Positions 5,168 to 22,546 of a stretch of 64,000 nucleotides of DNA are shown here, in pieces (the first letter of the stretch is position 1; each line of letters opens with the position of its first letter). This stretch comes from Bacteroidota bacterium. Its GTDB lineage: Bacteria; Bacteroidota; Bacteroidia; Chitinophagales; JADIYW01. The position numbers and the translations under genes are program-made. The stretch lies in the NCBI GenBank assembly GCA_963169645.1, contig CAUJCO010000010.1:1-64000 (forward strand), given 5' to 3'. The notes below the pieces were generated by a model. It searched no databases and was not told the DNA's origin. It saw nothing but the letters and a program-made list of their open reading frames with translations.

Positions 5168-6526
5168 ATGGAAATAGCTAAAAACGAATTAATTTCTGAT
5201 GTTTTAAAACATGAAAATCCGGATTTTCATGATTTTAGCACTACGGAATTAGTCGAATTTTTAGATGAATTTCCCGAATATGCACAGAAAATCATCTTGC
5301 ATTTGGAACCACATCGAGCGGTTAAAACATTAAAATTCCTTGATTTAAAACTTCAAAAAAAACTAATTCACACGTTGCCATCTAACAATGTAGCAATTTT
5401 AATTCAAAACATGCATTTTGATGATAGAACTGCATTGTTGAGTGAGTTAACGAGTGAATCGGTGAAAAAATTAGTCTTATTTTTACCACACGAAGATAGA
5501 ATAGAAACGTTAGCATTGTTAGGCTATGCTGAAGATAGTGTTGGACGATTAATGAATCCGGATTATATTGAAGTAAAAAGCCATTACACCGTACAAAATG
5601 CATTGGATAAAATCCGAAGATTAGGCAGAAATATTGAAAATATCAACTTCATTTATATCATTGATGAACATGAAAAACTCATTGATGATGTCAACTTGAA
5701 AGAACTACTCATCGCTTCGCCCGAAACTAAAATCAGTGAGTTGATGGATACTAAATATTTAGCATTGCATGTAAATGACGACCAAGAAACGGCAACTTCA
5801 GTTTTTAGAAAAAGTAACAGAGCTGTTTTACCGGTAATAGATGATAACAACATATTATTAGGTATCGTTACAATTGACGATATTTTACGTGTCGAAAGTG
5901 AAGAAGCAACCGAAGATATTCATAAAATTGGTGGAACGGAAGCATTGGATGAACCTTACATGAATACTCCTTTTTTTGAATTGATAAAAAAACGTGCCGG
6001 TTGGTTGGTGATTTTATTTTTAGGTGAAATGCTCACAGCATCGGCAATGGCATTTTTTGAAGATGAAATTGCAAAAGCAGTTGTGTTAGTGTTATTTATT
6101 CCATTAATAATTTCCAGCGGTGGAAACTCAGGTTCGCAAGCATCCACTTTAATCATTCGAGCAATGGCATTAGGTGAAATTAGTTTTGAAGATTGGTGGC
6201 GAGTAATGAAACGAGAAATATTAAGCGGATTAGCATTAGGCAGTTTATTAGGTTTTATTGGTTTTATGCGTATTCTTATTTGGAATTCCGTAAGTCCAAT
6301 TTATGGAGAACACTATGTTTTAATCGGTATTACAGTTTGGTTAACACTATTGTTAATCGTGCTTTGGGGCACATTGTGTGGTTCCATGTTGCCAATCGTA
6401 CTGAAACGGTTGGGCTTCGACCCGGCAACTTCATCAGCGCCATTTGTTGCTACTTTAGTAGATGTAACCGGACTCGTTATTTATTTTGTGGTAGCTTCCT
6501 TAATTTTAAGTGGAACATTGTTGTAA
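5168..6526 (+). CDS. mgtE: Magnesium transporter MgtE
   Basis: MgtE is a homodimeric Mg2+ channel in the inner membrane, gated by cytosolic Mg2+. The architecture is complete in 452 residues. Residues ~1-125 are the N-terminal helical superfamily domain (FLDEFPEYAQKIILHLEP, then SELTSESVKKLVLFLPHEDR). A CBS pair follows (~130-255), starting SVGRLMNPDYIEV and ending with VTIDDILRVESEEATEDIHKI. Residues ~273-452 form five membrane helices with the signature SSGGNSGSQASTLIIRAMALGE near 318-340. The CBS domain carries the acidic residues that bind regulatory Mg2+ in this family. The next gene, a CDF metal transporter, starts 41 bases later on the same strand, so the two may be co-transcribed. Confidence 0.95.
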   Translation: MEIAKNELISDVLKHENPDFHDFSTTELVEFLDEFPEYAQKIILHLEPHRAVKTLKFLDLKLQKKLIHTLPSNNVAILIQNMHFDDRTALLSELTSESVKKLVLFLPHEDRIETLALLGYAEDSVGRLMNPDYIEVKSHYTVQNALDKIRRLGRNIENINFIYIIDEHEKLIDDVNLKELLIASPETKISELMDTKYLALHVNDDQETATSVFRKSNRAVLPVIDDNNILLGIVTIDDILRVESEEATEDIHKIGGTEALDEPYMNTPFFELIKKRAGWLVILFLGEMLTASAMAFFEDEIAKAVVLVLFIPLIISSGGNSGSQASTLIIRAMALGEISFEDWWRVMKREILSGLALGSLLGFIGFMRILIWNSVSPIYGEHYVLIGITVWLTLLLIVLWGTLCGSMLPIVLKRLGFDPATSSAPFVATLVDVTGLVIYFVVASLILSGTLL

Positions 6527-12887: not shown

Positions 12888-12944
12888 GATGACTCATCAA
12901 GGATAGTAAATCATAAAAACCCTCATCAGAAACATTTGAAACCC
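12888..12944 (-). ncRNA. Degenerate relative of the 5'-GGGTTTTTATGTTTC small-RNA family
   Basis: This lies in the 399-base gene-free stretch between tRNA-Leu and the OmpA-like gene. On the minus strand there are two imperfect copies of the family's 5' motif: GGGTTTCAAATGTTTCT (12928-12944) and GGGTTTTTATGA (12911-12922). A small hairpin GATGA-G-TCATC follows (12888-12898). Unlike the copies at 20.9-22.5 kb, it has no T-tract after the last hairpin and no clear promoter, so it may be a relic. I see nothing else in 12695-13093 apart from the plus-strand terminator at 12939. Confidence 0.4.
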
Positions 12945-17535: not shown

Positions 17536-18795
17536 ATGAGAAATAAATTTGGAACATTTTGGATGCTTTTGCCTGCTATTGTACTCATCCTTATTGATAT
17601 CTATGTTTTCCAAGCCATCAAAAGCATTTATTCTGATTCTAAAACAAGCACTCAACGCATTGCTTATATTATATATTGGTCCTTATCCTCTATTACCTAT
17701 TTGGCTTTAATTCTTATTTTAATAAAAGGAAACAGCAATTGGCACGGATGGAGCAAAATATTAATTGTTGGAACCGCACAAACCATTTTCTTTGCAAAAG
17801 TATTAATACTTCCATTTGTTTTGATAGATGATATTATCCGATTATTTAGATGGATTTTTAGTTTTTTTCAAACTACAGAAGATGTGTTGCAGCCTGCCGG
17901 AATTTCACGTTTGCAATTTTTAAGTAAACTTGGTTTAGCATTGGGTTCAATGATGTCGATCGGATTAGTTTATGGTATTTTCAGAGGTGCGTATAATTAT
18001 CAAGTTAGAAAAGTAAATTTAAAAATTGCCAATTTACCTGAAGTATGGAAAGGCTTGAAAATAGTACAGTTTTCGGATATGCATTTAGGTAGCTTTGCCG
18101 ATGCAAAACCCGTGCAAACCATAGTCGATTTAATCAATGAACAAGAGGCGGATATTGTATTTTTTACAGGCGATTTAGTGAATTATGCTTCCGAAGAAGT
18201 AGAGCCATATATTCCAATTTTACAGCAAATCAAAGCAAAAACAAAAGTGTATTCAATTTTAGGAAATCACGATTATGGTTTGTATAAAGCTTGGAATTCG
18301 GATGAAGCAATGCATCAAAATTTGAATCGATTAAAAGAAATTCAAAGAAATGAATTAGGTTGGGATTTATTGTTAGATGAACATCGCATTATAGAACGAA
18401 ACGGAAGTACTTTAGCACTAATTGGTGTGCAATACATCGGACATTCCATGCGTTTCGGAAAGTTTGGTGATTTGAAGAAAGCTTATTCGGGTGCAGAAAA
18501 TGCCGATGTGCAATTATTACTTTCACACGATCCATCACATTGGGATCACGAAGTATCCGTTGTTGAAAATTATCGTGGCATACATGCTACATTTGCCGGG
18601 CATACACATGGCTTTCAATTTGGCATTGAAATTCCGGGCATAAAATGGAGTCCATCTAAGTATGTATATCCACACTGGGCCGGCTTGTATGCCAATGTAA
18701 ATCAAAAATTATATGTCAACCGAGGCATTGGATTTTTAGGATATCCGGGCAGATTGGGCATTTCTCCGGAAGTTACCGTATTTCAATTAACATAA
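17536..18795 (+). CDS. Membrane-anchored metallophosphoesterase (YkuE/YaeI-like)
   Basis: A 419-residue calcineurin-like phosphoesterase. Residues ~1-160 contain about four or five hydrophobic helices. The catalytic domain then carries all the metal-site motifs: DMHLG near 181, GDLVNYASEE near 213, GNHDYGLY near 243, LLLSHDPSHW near 330, and GHTHGFQFG near 355. Relatives hydrolyse UDP-diacylglucosamine or other phosphodiesters at the membrane, but the substrate here is inferred only loosely. A terminator hairpin at 18797 begins within two bases of the stop codon. Confidence 0.9.
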   Translation: MRNKFGTFWMLLPAIVLILIDIYVFQAIKSIYSDSKTSTQRIAYIIYWSLSSITYLALILILIKGNSNWHGWSKILIVGTAQTIFFAKVLILPFVLIDDIIRLFRWIFSFFQTTEDVLQPAGISRLQFLSKLGLALGSMMSIGLVYGIFRGAYNYQVRKVNLKIANLPEVWKGLKIVQFSDMHLGSFADAKPVQTIVDLINEQEADIVFFTGDLVNYASEEVEPYIPILQQIKAKTKVYSILGNHDYGLYKAWNSDEAMHQNLNRLKEIQRNELGWDLLLDEHRIIERNGSTLALIGVQYIGHSMRFGKFGDLKKAYSGAENADVQLLLSHDPSHWDHEVSVVENYRGIHATFAGHTHGFQFGIEIPGIKWSPSKYVYPHWAGLYANVNQKLYVNRGIGFLGYPGRLGISPEVTVFQLT

Positions 18796-18796
18796 A

Positions 18797-18830
18797 AAAA
18801 AGCCAACTATACAAAATAGCTGGCTTTTAA
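18797..18830 (+). terminator. Terminator after the metallophosphoesterase gene
   Basis: AAAAGCCA (18797-18804) pairs with TGGCTTTT (18821-18828), extended inward by CTA/TAG across one A-C mismatch. It is preceded by an A-run, so it could work in both directions. Confidence 0.7.
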
Positions 18831-18840
18831 ATCGAACATT

Positions 18841-18990
18841 AGGTTTTTACGTTTCTAACTGCAAATGTGTGGGTTTTTATGCTTTTAGAACGTGTCAGTC
18901 GGGTTTTTACGTTTCTAAATTTGGGTCTGCGGGTTTTTACGTTCGAGAATTTTTATGTTTCTACTTTTAGGGTTGGGTTTTTATGTTTCT
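18841..18990 (+). repeat. Array of six GGGTTTTTAYGTTTCT units, mostly at an exact 30-base period
   Basis: Six copies of a 16-base motif start at 18841, 18871, 18901, 18931, 18947 and 18975. The first four are spaced exactly 30 bases apart, with 14-base variable parts between them. The unit starting at 18931 is truncated and abuts the next. The same 16 bases form the 5' end of the three small-RNA candidates at 20.9-22.5 kb. Unit 3 (18901-18930) also resembles the hairpin part that follows in those RNAs (TTTGGGTCTGC compared with TTTAGGGTCTGA). No terminator hairpin or promoter is visible for the array. It lies between the terminator at 18797 and the stop codon of the small minus-strand ORF. 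Confidence 0.85.
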
Positions 18991-18994
18991 GAAC

Positions 18995-19204
18995 TTAGAT
19001 ATTTCGTCCAATTCCATCTTCTGTAATTATCAGTTGTTGGTAGGTAAATTTTCGAATGTAATTTTTGTTCGATTTATTTTTTGACTTGTTGACAAATTCA
19101 ATTTGTTGTCGCACAATGTCTTTAATAATTCTTTTCATTTTATTCATTGGTTGGGATTTTTGAATTAATGAATTTTTTAATGTTGCGTTTATTTTAAATT
19201 TCAA
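18995..19204 (-). CDS. Small basic hypothetical protein
   Basis: An open frame of up to 69 residues, rich in Lys, Asn and Ile, with no recognisable domain. A shorter version starting at the ATG at 19147 (MNKMKRIIKDIVRQQIEF) would give 50 residues. The C-terminal part reads as alternating helix and strand (KFTYQQLIITEDGIGRNI). Its stop codon lies five bases from the end of the 30-base-period array. It is divergent from the 508-residue gene, with about 150 bases between the two starts. It could be a real small gene tied to this locus or a chance frame. I lean slightly to real because of the length in an otherwise non-coding gap and the position. Confidence 0.4.
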   Translation of the reverse strand: MKFKINATLKNSLIQKSQPMNKMKRIIKDIVRQQIEFVNKSKNKSNKNYIRKFTYQQLIITEDGIGRNI

Positions 19205-19358
19205 TTTGATAATGTAAAGTTAGAGCCACTTTTCTGACTTGTAAAGGATACGTAATATAAAATTGTGACATCCTTATTTAAACAATTGTGGATATGTAGA
19301 TTGCTGTTTTATTGGTGTTTTTATATTAATATTATAATACATACAAATACAAAAAGAG

Positions 19359-20885
19359 ATGGAGCAACTAAAAGAATTAGTTAGTATAGTAAATAAACGC
19401 AAGCTAAGTCAGGTAGAAATTCTCGATAAATCACTAATAAGTAGAAAAGATACTTTGTTTTCCAAGCTATATAATGGAATTGCAGATGGCATTGTACATA
19501 CTGATGATGATGCCATAGATTATTTATACAACCAAACTGAACAGGCACAAAAAGAACGCGTTAATTATAGAAAATTAAAATCTAGATTTAAAACGCGGTT
19601 ACTCAATACCTTATATTTTATTGATATCAACAATCAATCAGAAGCAGATGCAAGTAAGCGTGCTTATTTTGAATGTGTAAACCGATTGTATTTAAGTAAT
19701 ATTTTATTGCGATATACCGATAATAGAAATGCATCAATACAATTAATAATGGAAGTGTACACAACAGCTAAAAAATATAATTTCTTCGATTTATTAAAAG
19801 AATATGCTTATAAACTGCTAGTGCATTACGGCATGACCGGCAATGAAAAGAAATACAATGAAGAATATCAGGCTTATCAAATCTATGCCAATGAATATGA
19901 ATGGGAACAGCAAGCACAGATTGTTTACACCAAAGTGATGATGACCGTACACTATGTAAAAAAATCACATGCAGAAAAAATTAAAACTATTGAAGTTTGC
20001 TCTAAAGAATTAGATTCGATTACTACAAAATCAAAATCGTTAGTAGTCTATTTTATTTCTATACGCACACAATTATTCTATAACGAAATCATTGGCGATC
20101 ATTTAGCAATTAATAAAACCTGTGATGCATATCTAAAAAATCATAAAAAGTACTACACTTCTATCCTATCGGAAACCTACTTAAATACCATTTATATTTA
20201 CAAACTTAAATCGCTTTTCGATTTACGAAAAATGGAAGATGCTTTAAATATCATCCAAGAATATGAACCAACAGCAAAGGGTGCTAGTTATTTGGCCATC
20301 AAAGAATTTGAAATAAAAATTTTACTTTCTGACAAACAATATGCTACTGCAAAAAATTTAATACAGCAACTGCAACAGTCTAGCTATTTTAAAAATGCCA
20401 ACCAATTATTAAAAGAAAGATGGTTTGTGTATAATGCATACGTTGAATTTTTAGAACATTTTATGAATGATAGTTCATTTAAATTCAGTTTGTCAAAATT
20501 TTCAAATGATATTCCAACGGTTTCACAAGATAAATCCGGATTTAATTTAGCGGCACGTATTGCACACATCTTATTTTATATTGGTAGAAATGACTTAGAC
20601 AATGCGATGCAACAGATTGAATCATTACGTGTATATCAATCCAGACATTTAAAAGATGAAAATATAGATAGAGAAAATTTATTTGTGAAGTTATTATCCA
20701 ATTTAGAGAAGAAAAGTTTTAACTATAAAAACATGCATCAAGCAGAAGAATATAGTACTTTGAAAAAGCATTATGAGCATCAAATCATTTCAGAAAGTGA
20801 AATTATTTTTTACGATATACTTTGGGAGATGATTTTGGAAATTCTTAAACGCAATGATGCTAAGATTATTCAAAACTTGAGATAA
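19359..20885 (+). CDS. Uncharacterised all-helical protein (TPR-like), 508 residues
   Basis: A cytoplasmic protein: no signal peptide and no membrane segment. It is almost entirely predicted alpha-helix, with repeated amphipathic pairs rich in Tyr, Lys and Glu. The segments YNEEYQAYQIYANEYEWE, FEIKILLSDKQYATAKNLI and DLDNAMQQIESLRVY are reminiscent of TPR or similar solenoids. The N-terminus (MEQLKELVSIVNKRKLSQVEIL) followed by KLKSRFKTRLLNTLYFIDI looks like a family I have met in other Bacteroidota, but I cannot verify that or name a function. The start ATG follows an A-rich leader. The stop codon is three bases before the T-tract of the convergent small-RNA candidate at 20889-20952. Confidence 0.8.
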   Translation: MEQLKELVSIVNKRKLSQVEILDKSLISRKDTLFSKLYNGIADGIVHTDDDAIDYLYNQTEQAQKERVNYRKLKSRFKTRLLNTLYFIDINNQSEADASKRAYFECVNRLYLSNILLRYTDNRNASIQLIMEVYTTAKKYNFFDLLKEYAYKLLVHYGMTGNEKKYNEEYQAYQIYANEYEWEQQAQIVYTKVMMTVHYVKKSHAEKIKTIEVCSKELDSITTKSKSLVVYFISIRTQLFYNEIIGDHLAINKTCDAYLKNHKKYYTSILSETYLNTIYIYKLKSLFDLRKMEDALNIIQEYEPTAKGASYLAIKEFEIKILLSDKQYATAKNLIQQLQQSSYFKNANQLLKERWFVYNAYVEFLEHFMNDSSFKFSLSKFSNDIPTVSQDKSGFNLAARIAHILFYIGRNDLDNAMQQIESLRVYQSRHLKDENIDRENLFVKLLSNLEKKSFNYKNMHQAEEYSTLKKHYEHQIISESEIIFYDILWEMILEILKRNDAKIIQNLR

Positions 20886-20888
20886 GAC

Positions 20889-20952
20889 AAAAAAAAACGG
20901 GTAAGCTTTGCACTCACCCGTCAGACCCTAAAGTCTAGAAACATAAAAACCC
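20889..20952 (-). ncRNA. Candidate small RNA, copy A (complete: promoter, two hairpins, terminator)
   Basis: Read on the minus strand. It starts GGGTTTTTATGTTTCT (20952-20937). Then come a small hairpin AGAC-TTTAGG-GTCT (20936-20923) and a terminator hairpin CGGGTGAG/CTTACCCG (20920-20898), followed by nine T (20897-20889). The promoter at 20958-20988 is ideal and places the start of transcription at or next to the GGG. The total is about 60 nt. Stem positions that differ from copies B and C remain paired only if G-U pairs are allowed on this strand; on the plus strand they become A-C mismatches. The function is unknown. It ends just short of the convergent 508-residue gene. Confidence 0.7.
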
Positions 20953-20957
20953 TATTA

Positions 20958-20988
20958 CAAAGGTAATAACCATTTTCCATTATCCAAA
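20958..20988 (-). promoter_or_regulatory. Promoter of small-RNA copy A (TTTG - 19 nt - TACCTTTG)
   Basis: On the minus strand TTTG (20988-20985) is followed by exactly 19 bases and then TACCTTTG (20965-20958). Both boxes match the Bacteroidota consensus. The -7 box ends five bases before the GGG that begins the conserved RNA sequence. Confidence 0.75.
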
Positions 20989-22112: not shown

Positions 22113-22340
22113 TTTAATAAATTTCTATTGTCTATTGGAGCAATGAAATAAGCAATTGCTTTTATGTAATAAAAATACTGTATTTGTTACTTAATCAGTG
22201 TTACATCAAAAAGATTTAATTATTTGTTTTTGTTAGGAAAAAATGGTGCGTATCTGTTTAAAATAGGATAAAGTGAAATAATAATGTTGGAGATTTCTGC
22301 CGTGCAACCTACTATACATTCAATTTTCAGTGAAAAAAAT

Positions 22341-22400
22341 AAAAAAAGGTAAGCTTATCACCTACCTTTTTTCAGGCAAAGCCTGGAAACATAAAAACCC
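22341..22400 (-). ncRNA. Candidate small RNA, copy B
   Basis: Minus strand. The 5' motif is GGGTTTTTATGTTTCC (22400-22385), then hairpin CAGGC-TTT-GCCTG (22385-22373). The terminator hairpin AGGTAGG-TGATAAG-CTTACCT follows (about 22368-22348), flanked by extra A/T pairs and a run of seven T. The first hairpin has a different sequence from copies A and C but still pairs perfectly, which supports structure conservation. Its promoter is less clear than that of copy A: TAGTTTCA lies about ten bases upstream of GGG. The T-tract ends 229 bases before the start of the epimerase gene, so a leader or attenuator role is also possible. Confidence 0.6.
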
Positions 22401-22481: not shown

Positions 22482-22546
22482 AAAAAAAAAATGGGGTAAG
22501 CATTGCACTTACCCACAGACCTGAAAGTCTAGAAACATAGAAACCC
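22482..22546 (-). ncRNA. Candidate small RNA, copy C
   Basis: Minus strand. The 5' motif is GGGTTTCTATGTTTCT (22546-22531), followed by hairpin AGAC-TTTCAG-GTCT (22530-22517). The perfect terminator hairpin GGGTAAG-TGCAATG-CTTACCC (22514-22494) is followed by ten T. TTTG and TATACTTC with a 19-base spacer lie directly upstream, a weaker promoter than that of copy A. Copies B and C occupy the 625-base stretch between the epimerase and hemerythrin genes. I see no coding frame there. Confidence 0.6.

Follow-up and report, generated by a model that had tools for sequence, protein, structure and literature searches.

A conserved small RNA family of Chitinophagales and candidate multi-site sponge RNAs predicted from complementary repeat arrays

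Introduction

Several described systems resemble the locus analysed here. As presented in the cited sections of the report on Bacteroides thetaiotaomicron, the FopS sRNAs (Rfam RF04319) are multicopy RNAs of about 65–70 nt with canonical sigma promoters, a conserved unpaired 5′ seed and a 3′ terminator hairpin; they are antagonised by the protein RbpB, and antisense RNAs are not described in those sections (PMC11697453). In Vibrio cholerae, QrrX is a dedicated sponge of Qrr1–4 whose activator-driven promoter contains a conserved element at −36 to −74 (PMC9732341). Other sponges derive from 3′ UTRs and spacers, including the pairs SroC/GcvB, chb spacer/ChiX and 3′ETS-leuZ/RyhB (reviewed in PMC8383071). 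The cyanobacterial sRNA families Yfr1 and Yfr2, both conserved, contain conserved motifs that are almost complementary to each other, from which crosstalk is suggested in the cited part of that work (PMC6778093).

Here we analysed a 64,000-nt stretch of a Chitinophagales genome (the window) in which an initial annotation had proposed a transcription unit, copy A. Sequence and conservation together predict that 20952–20889 on the minus strand is an evolutionarily conserved gene for a 64-nt regulatory RNA. Beyond a transcription unit as such, copy A belongs to a family of paralogous sRNAs, and the repeats at 18841–18991 constitute a predicted, transcribed multi-site complement of its 5′ end.

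Results

Bacteroidota sigma-A promoters carry a −33 TTTG about 19 nt before the −7 motif. Copy A has precisely this layout (Table 1): its TTTG, the 19-nt spacer (20984–20966) and the −7 box lie base for base where the initial annotation had placed them, and the box conforms to the TAnnTTTG form of the Bacteroidota sigma-A −7 motif described in PMC9723704. TAATA (20957–20953) separates the box from GGG (20952–20950), and this five-base distance, which had also been pointed out, is exact and kept across the orthologues of copy A and of a second paralogue (type 2). Perfect matches to TTTG-N19-TANNTTTG occur at two sites in the 64 kb, counting both strands, compared with 0.4 expected from mononucleotide shuffles. 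TTTG-N19-TAnnTTTG-N5-GGG is retained in all seven copy-A orthologues, and TAnnTTTG-N5-GGG in all eight type-2 copies, with a −33 box matching at three or more of its four positions; the promoter lay outside the motif used in the pattern searches for family members. This retention bears out the earlier view that the site is a consensus Bacteroidota promoter, and shows that the match is not due to chance. Because the −7 box of Flavobacterium lies at −12 to −5 (PMC9723704), 20950 is less likely to be the +1 of copy A than either the almost invariant A at 20953 or the G at 20952 that opens the GGG.

Downstream, the minus strand runs into nine Ts (20897–20889), in agreement with the proposed T-tract about 60 bases past the GGG. 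The RNA folds at −20.6 kcal/mol (z −2.9), a value beaten by only 1 of 200 dinucleotide shuffles. An unpaired segment of 18 nt opens the folded stretch, followed by a small hairpin and then by the terminator hairpin. Promoter, conserved 5′ end and terminator had been taken to form a single unit with no room for a protein, and all three are indeed conserved jointly in related species. The unit is compact and noncoding: a protein gene was considered and rejected, as no ORF fits and the ATG of the seed is ACG in several motif copies. Copy A is convergent with a 508-aa gene (window 19359–20885, plus strand), and the end of this ORF at 20885 leaves the three bases between them that had been reported. 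The 508-aa protein has no Pfam match; it belongs to a large Chitinophagales family, with about 12 matches in genome G023. A scan of the whole window at the Rfam gathering thresholds returned only tRNAs and no match for copy A. Sub-threshold matches to DapZ, the L20 leader and suhB were discarded, as they reflect the terminator and U run.

Table 1. Features of copy A, its paralogues in the window and the candidate sponge transcript
Feature	Position	Strand	Remarks
Paralogue copy B (seed, hairpin 1, terminator)	22484..22546	−	80.8 bits; weak promoter, without TTTG-N19-TAnnTTTG
Paralogue copy C (seed, different hairpin 1, terminator)	22338..22400	−	64.9 bits; weak promoter
−33 element TTTG, copy A	20985..20988	−	TTTG in 7/7 copy-A orthologues
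−7 element TACCTTTG, copy A	20958..20965	−	TAnnTTTG in 7/7 copy-A orthologues and 8 second-paralogue copies
sRNA copy A, ~64 nt	20889..20952	−	R1 covariance model, 91.4 bits
Unpaired 5′ seed GGGUUUUUAUGUUUC, copy A	20952–20938	−	15 nt
Hairpin 1, copy A	about 20937–20922	−	Small; AGAC/GUCU
Terminator hairpin and U9, copy A	20921–20889	−	
Upstream box TAAGGATGTCACA, candidate sponge transcript	19264..19276	−	Exactly 41 nt before the −7 element; sole perfect box-N41-(−7) match in own genome
Core promoter, candidate sponge: TTTA (19245–19242), N19, TAACTTTA (19222–19215)	19215..19245	−	
47-aa ORF (MKRIIKDIVRQQ...IITEDGIGRNI), 5′ side of candidate sponge transcript	18995..19138	−	Proteins with 48–64% identity at the corresponding position in 4 other species
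Six anti-seed sites, starts 18991, 18963, 18947, 18917, 18887, 18857	18841..18991	−	Consensus UAGAAACRUAAAAACCC
Intrinsic terminator, candidate sponge: stem AAAAGCCAGCUA/UAGUUGGCUUUU, then U run	18794..18829	−	

The 15-nt 5′ end of copy A, GGGTTTTTATGTTTC, is found elsewhere in its own genome at copies B (22546) and C (22400) and at C7:56965 (type 2), and weaker forms of the seed that lack a clear promoter lie at C7:105196 and C13:185368. Counted by sequence, this Chitinophagales genome has about six loci with the seed, copy A included. Seed RNAs are present in all eight genomes of the genus, where the invariance of the seed is partly by construction because the pattern search selects for it. 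A covariance model, with E values no higher than 1e-13 for copies A and B and the type-2 copy in the own genome, matched in the same 8 of 8 genomes and in two further genera of the family (G008 and G009); it found no member in the family's fourth genus and, across 299 genomes of the order, only weak one-off matches outside the family. In this collection, which includes partly draft MAGs, the predicted sRNA family was thus found only in one Chitinophagales family. Its terminator stem is paired in 97% of cells, compared with 79% in shuffles, and all 35 two-sided (compensatory) changes fall within it; hairpin 1 draws its support from folding, with no covariation support on the A1 alignment. A literature search of open-access papers returned no described RNA with this seed or with the arrays described below.

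Three further observations concern this family. The type-2 promoters (L016, L017, L030 and L032) contain an inverted repeat, AAGTTAAACAAC...GTTGTTTAACTT, that flanks the −33 element on both sides and extends into the −7 box; it resembles a repressor site, and copy A has no such repeat. At 12922–12855 of the window (minus strand), just past a terminator-like hairpin, a weak match to the sRNA model (15.1 bits) with a 3-mismatch seed may be a decayed family member. At about 5750–6260 of G008:C33 (L101), each of two tandem sRNA copies faces a convergent transcript that carries the box and weak sites resembling anti-seed sites.

About 2 kb from copy A and on the same strand lies a candidate sponge unit (about 19210–18794), with a predicted transcript start near 19210. 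A repeat scan of the plus strand revealed degenerate seed copies 30 nt apart at 18840–18996, which on the minus strand read as anti-seed sites, mostly spaced by 28–30 nt. Up to six tandem antisense sites is the layout of engineered microRNA sponges. The unit has its own promoter with a predicted regulator site and its own terminator, both evident from sequence and conservation, as would be expected of a dedicated sponge. The order of sRNA, 508-aa gene and array transcript is retained in sister species. The motif KIIKDIVRQQ...IITEDGxGR of the 47-aa ORF occurs in five species, and two additional species have shorter versions that keep the C-terminal motif; the 47-aa protein has no Pfam match.

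Nucleotides 1–36 of the sRNA form a best duplex of −47.7 kcal/mol with the window array, compared with −21.6 ± 3.3 kcal/mol for shuffled arrays, the best of 200 of which reached −33.8. The sites pair with sRNA nt 1–17, extending to nt 1–36 in the best case. Five anti-seed sites fall within 180 nt, a clustering that only 1 of 300 shuffled seeds approaches by reaching four at the same threshold. Across the arrays of the genus (own genome and seven others), pairing with the sRNA ranges from −33 to −48 kcal/mol, and seed RNAs and arrays occur together in this genus. Complementarity to the shared seed thus exceeds chance, as is characteristic of a dedicated sponge of the QrrX type. The candidate arrays of genera g2 and g3 do not outperform good shuffles in pairing, and we treat the arrays in G008 and G009 as tentative.

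The array promoters share a box, TAAGVATGTCACA, which was defined without reference to anti-seed sites and searched with the pattern AAGNATGTCACA-N41-YANNTTTAC. The box alone (WAAGVATGTCACA) occurs at 22 places in 13 genomes, and its one occurrence in the own genome is the window array. Downstream of these 22 boxes lie 29 anti-seed sites (≤2 mismatches) in 13 loci, compared with 0.03 in shuffles, and no sense-strand seed sites. The distance from the end of the box to the −7 element is exactly 41 nt in most of the 22 loci; the exact box-N41-(−7) combination is present at 13 places in 8 genomes, each belonging to this genus, out of 299 from the order, and a reversed control of the pattern had no match in the 299 genomes. 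Twelve of the 13 places correspond to predicted anti-seed RNAs, often without an ORF (G003:C98, G005:C163, G007:C7, G007:C10 and three in G006:C119; L186, L198, L197, L200, L201, L203 and L204), which indicates that the shared part is the repeat array and not a small protein. An integron or transposon was ruled out as the source of the G006:C119 repeats, each of which has a box, promoter, site and terminator.

The thirteenth place, G003:C206:13306–13367 (L226), precedes a gene whose product appears by eye to be of the PorP/SprF type, and in G007:C13 (L202) the box stands 41 nt from a −7 element ahead of a gene for a secreted protein. As the box is also found ahead of protein genes, its regulon may extend beyond the sponge RNAs. 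Five species share, at a single conserved locus, a second class of anti-seed RNA that has one site, is preceded by a TAnnTTTG promoter of its own and ends in a terminator. At G000:C7:259724 (L136), as at L155, L156, L157 and L160, a conserved single-site anti-seed RNA has a TAACTTTG-type promoter, TAGAAACATAAAAATCC and a terminator, and lies downstream of a different 508-aa gene (MEEEIKNTSK...).

We scanned for mRNA targets in the window and 40 stretches of 20 kb, in total ~0.86 Mb with 730 ORFs, or about a third of the genome. Within these 730 ORFs, sRNA-pairing sites at start codons showed no enrichment over shuffles, and the best single seed match in the start-region scan was at C13:136530 (−17.4 kcal/mol). 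For FopS-type pairing with susC-type mRNA starts, the relevant observation is this general one, made on the starts of the 730 ORFs taken together. In a lipoprotein mRNA, G000:C4:105684 (L001), the start codon lies within a perfect 15-nt copy of the sRNA seed. This site scores −20.7 kcal/mol against the anti-seed, compared with −10.2 for the next best, and anti-seed RNAs could therefore pair with the lipoprotein mRNA; no near-perfect counterpart was found in the other genomes of the genus.

Discussion

On balance, we think it probable that a FopS-like sRNA family is titrated by dedicated, co-regulated, multi-site sponge RNAs, as Qrr1–4 are by Vibrio QrrX. Copy A would be a short regulatory RNA that acts in trans and is transcribed from a housekeeping sigma-A promoter, with the conserved unpaired 5′ end as its pairing region and with hairpin 1 and the terminator conferring stability and the 3′ end. 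The sponge transcript would arise from a regulated promoter in which the box, at about −60, is probably an activator site; it may encode the 47-aa protein, and it would present its six tandem sites in its 3′ part. When the box is active, the sponge would form duplexes with copies A, B, C and the other paralogues in the cell and titrate or destabilise them, and this is proposed to relieve whatever those sRNAs repress. A broader formulation, to which we give an even chance, is a two-sided Chitinophagales RNA circuit in which the one-seed sRNA family would stand under a multi-site sponge regulon controlled by one activator through the fixed-distance ATGTCACA box.

The sponge transcript holds a conserved ORF and could therefore be a regulated mRNA instead of a decoy, with the sRNA regulating the 47-aa protein mRNA (and other RNAs) by pairing in the 3′ UTR. 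Conservation of this ORF at the same place in five species is consistent with such a target, as is the location of the sites between its stop codon and the terminator. However, an ORF is missing from many array RNAs that have the same promoter, the common promoter box marks the array class and not one protein, and six near-perfect sites distant from the start codon would be excessive for a single target, so that we consider this reading unlikely. It is distinctly unlikely that the roles are reversed, such that the anti-seed RNAs regulate mRNAs and copy A and its paralogues, the seed RNAs, serve as their decoys. The predicted regulated promoter of the anti-seed class would fit such an arrangement, and so would the perfect seed over the lipoprotein start codon, but this site is confined to one genome of the genus among near-perfect matches, the many-site, A-rich arrays resemble sinks, and the seed RNAs are built compactly like known trans-acting sRNAs.

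Alternatively, copy A might be an ordinary paralogous sRNA and the array unrelated DNA, whether decayed sRNA copies, a repeat or a protein-binding DNA element; on the plus strand, the array does resemble degenerate tandem copies of the first 30 nt of the sRNA. Yet the array is kept across species whose neighbouring protein is only 59–68% identical, it always lies on the strand read from the conserved promoter, ahead of a terminator in the matching orientation, sense-strand sites are absent, and arrays recur at unlinked loci picked by the promoter box alone, which together make this explanation very unlikely. Least likely of all, and in our view highly improbable, is that copy A merely ends a longer transcript, or that it serves the 508-aa gene as a bidirectional terminator. 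Although copy A is convergent with that gene and abuts it, the T-run follows the hairpin on the minus strand only, the promoter is perfect and keeps a near-invariant spacing in 15 orthologous copies, and the type-2 paralogue has an equivalent unit at another locus.

The sponge model invites comparison with systems outside and within the Bacteroidota. As far as the cited part of the work on Yfr1 and Yfr2 goes, the likeness lies in paired RNA families with nearly complementary motifs, whereas the sequences and phylum are unrelated and tandem arrays are not mentioned there. SroC, the chb spacer and 3′ETS-leuZ similarly place a decoy site within a longer transcript, but they are products of other genes, whereas the arrays here have their own promoter signature and a repeated site. 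A close parallel in regulatory logic is QrrX, which like the predicted sponge has its own promoter and pairs with a seed common to a family of paralogous sRNAs. QrrX, however, is a Vibrio RNA that is Hfq-dependent and has one base-pairing region, whereas the present arrays, in another phylum, can have as many as six tandem sites and an optional small ORF, and some species encode several sponge loci in one genome. Sponge control of sRNAs is known mainly in Hfq-using proteobacteria, usually through one pairing region; here, a sponge regulon with tandem arrays and a defined promoter box is predicted in Bacteroidota from sequence alone. The box, sites and seed offer direct handles on how Bacteroidota sRNA families get switched off.

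On the sRNA side, the copy A family shares with FopS, as characterized in the cited sections, its size class, phylum, promoter type, unpaired 5′ seed and 3′ terminator, and it too has several paralogues per genome. The 5′ ends of copy A and FopS align over 29 columns from nt 1 (shuffle p about 0.001–0.003, in a comparison made post hoc after a weak cmscan match), and the own genome encodes two RRM proteins (RRM_1), the type of the FopS partner RbpB, which might play a corresponding role. Copy A differs from FopS in its extra hairpin 1 and in the lack of start-codon target enrichment in the 730-ORF scan. Its score against RF04319 (23.8 bits, E 0.17) is below the gathering cut-off of 56 bits, and it is therefore not filed as FopS; it resembles FopS in its build and perhaps in its first 29 nt. 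This FopS-like 5′ end raises the question of whether the FopS sRNAs of Bacteroides have RNA antagonists too.
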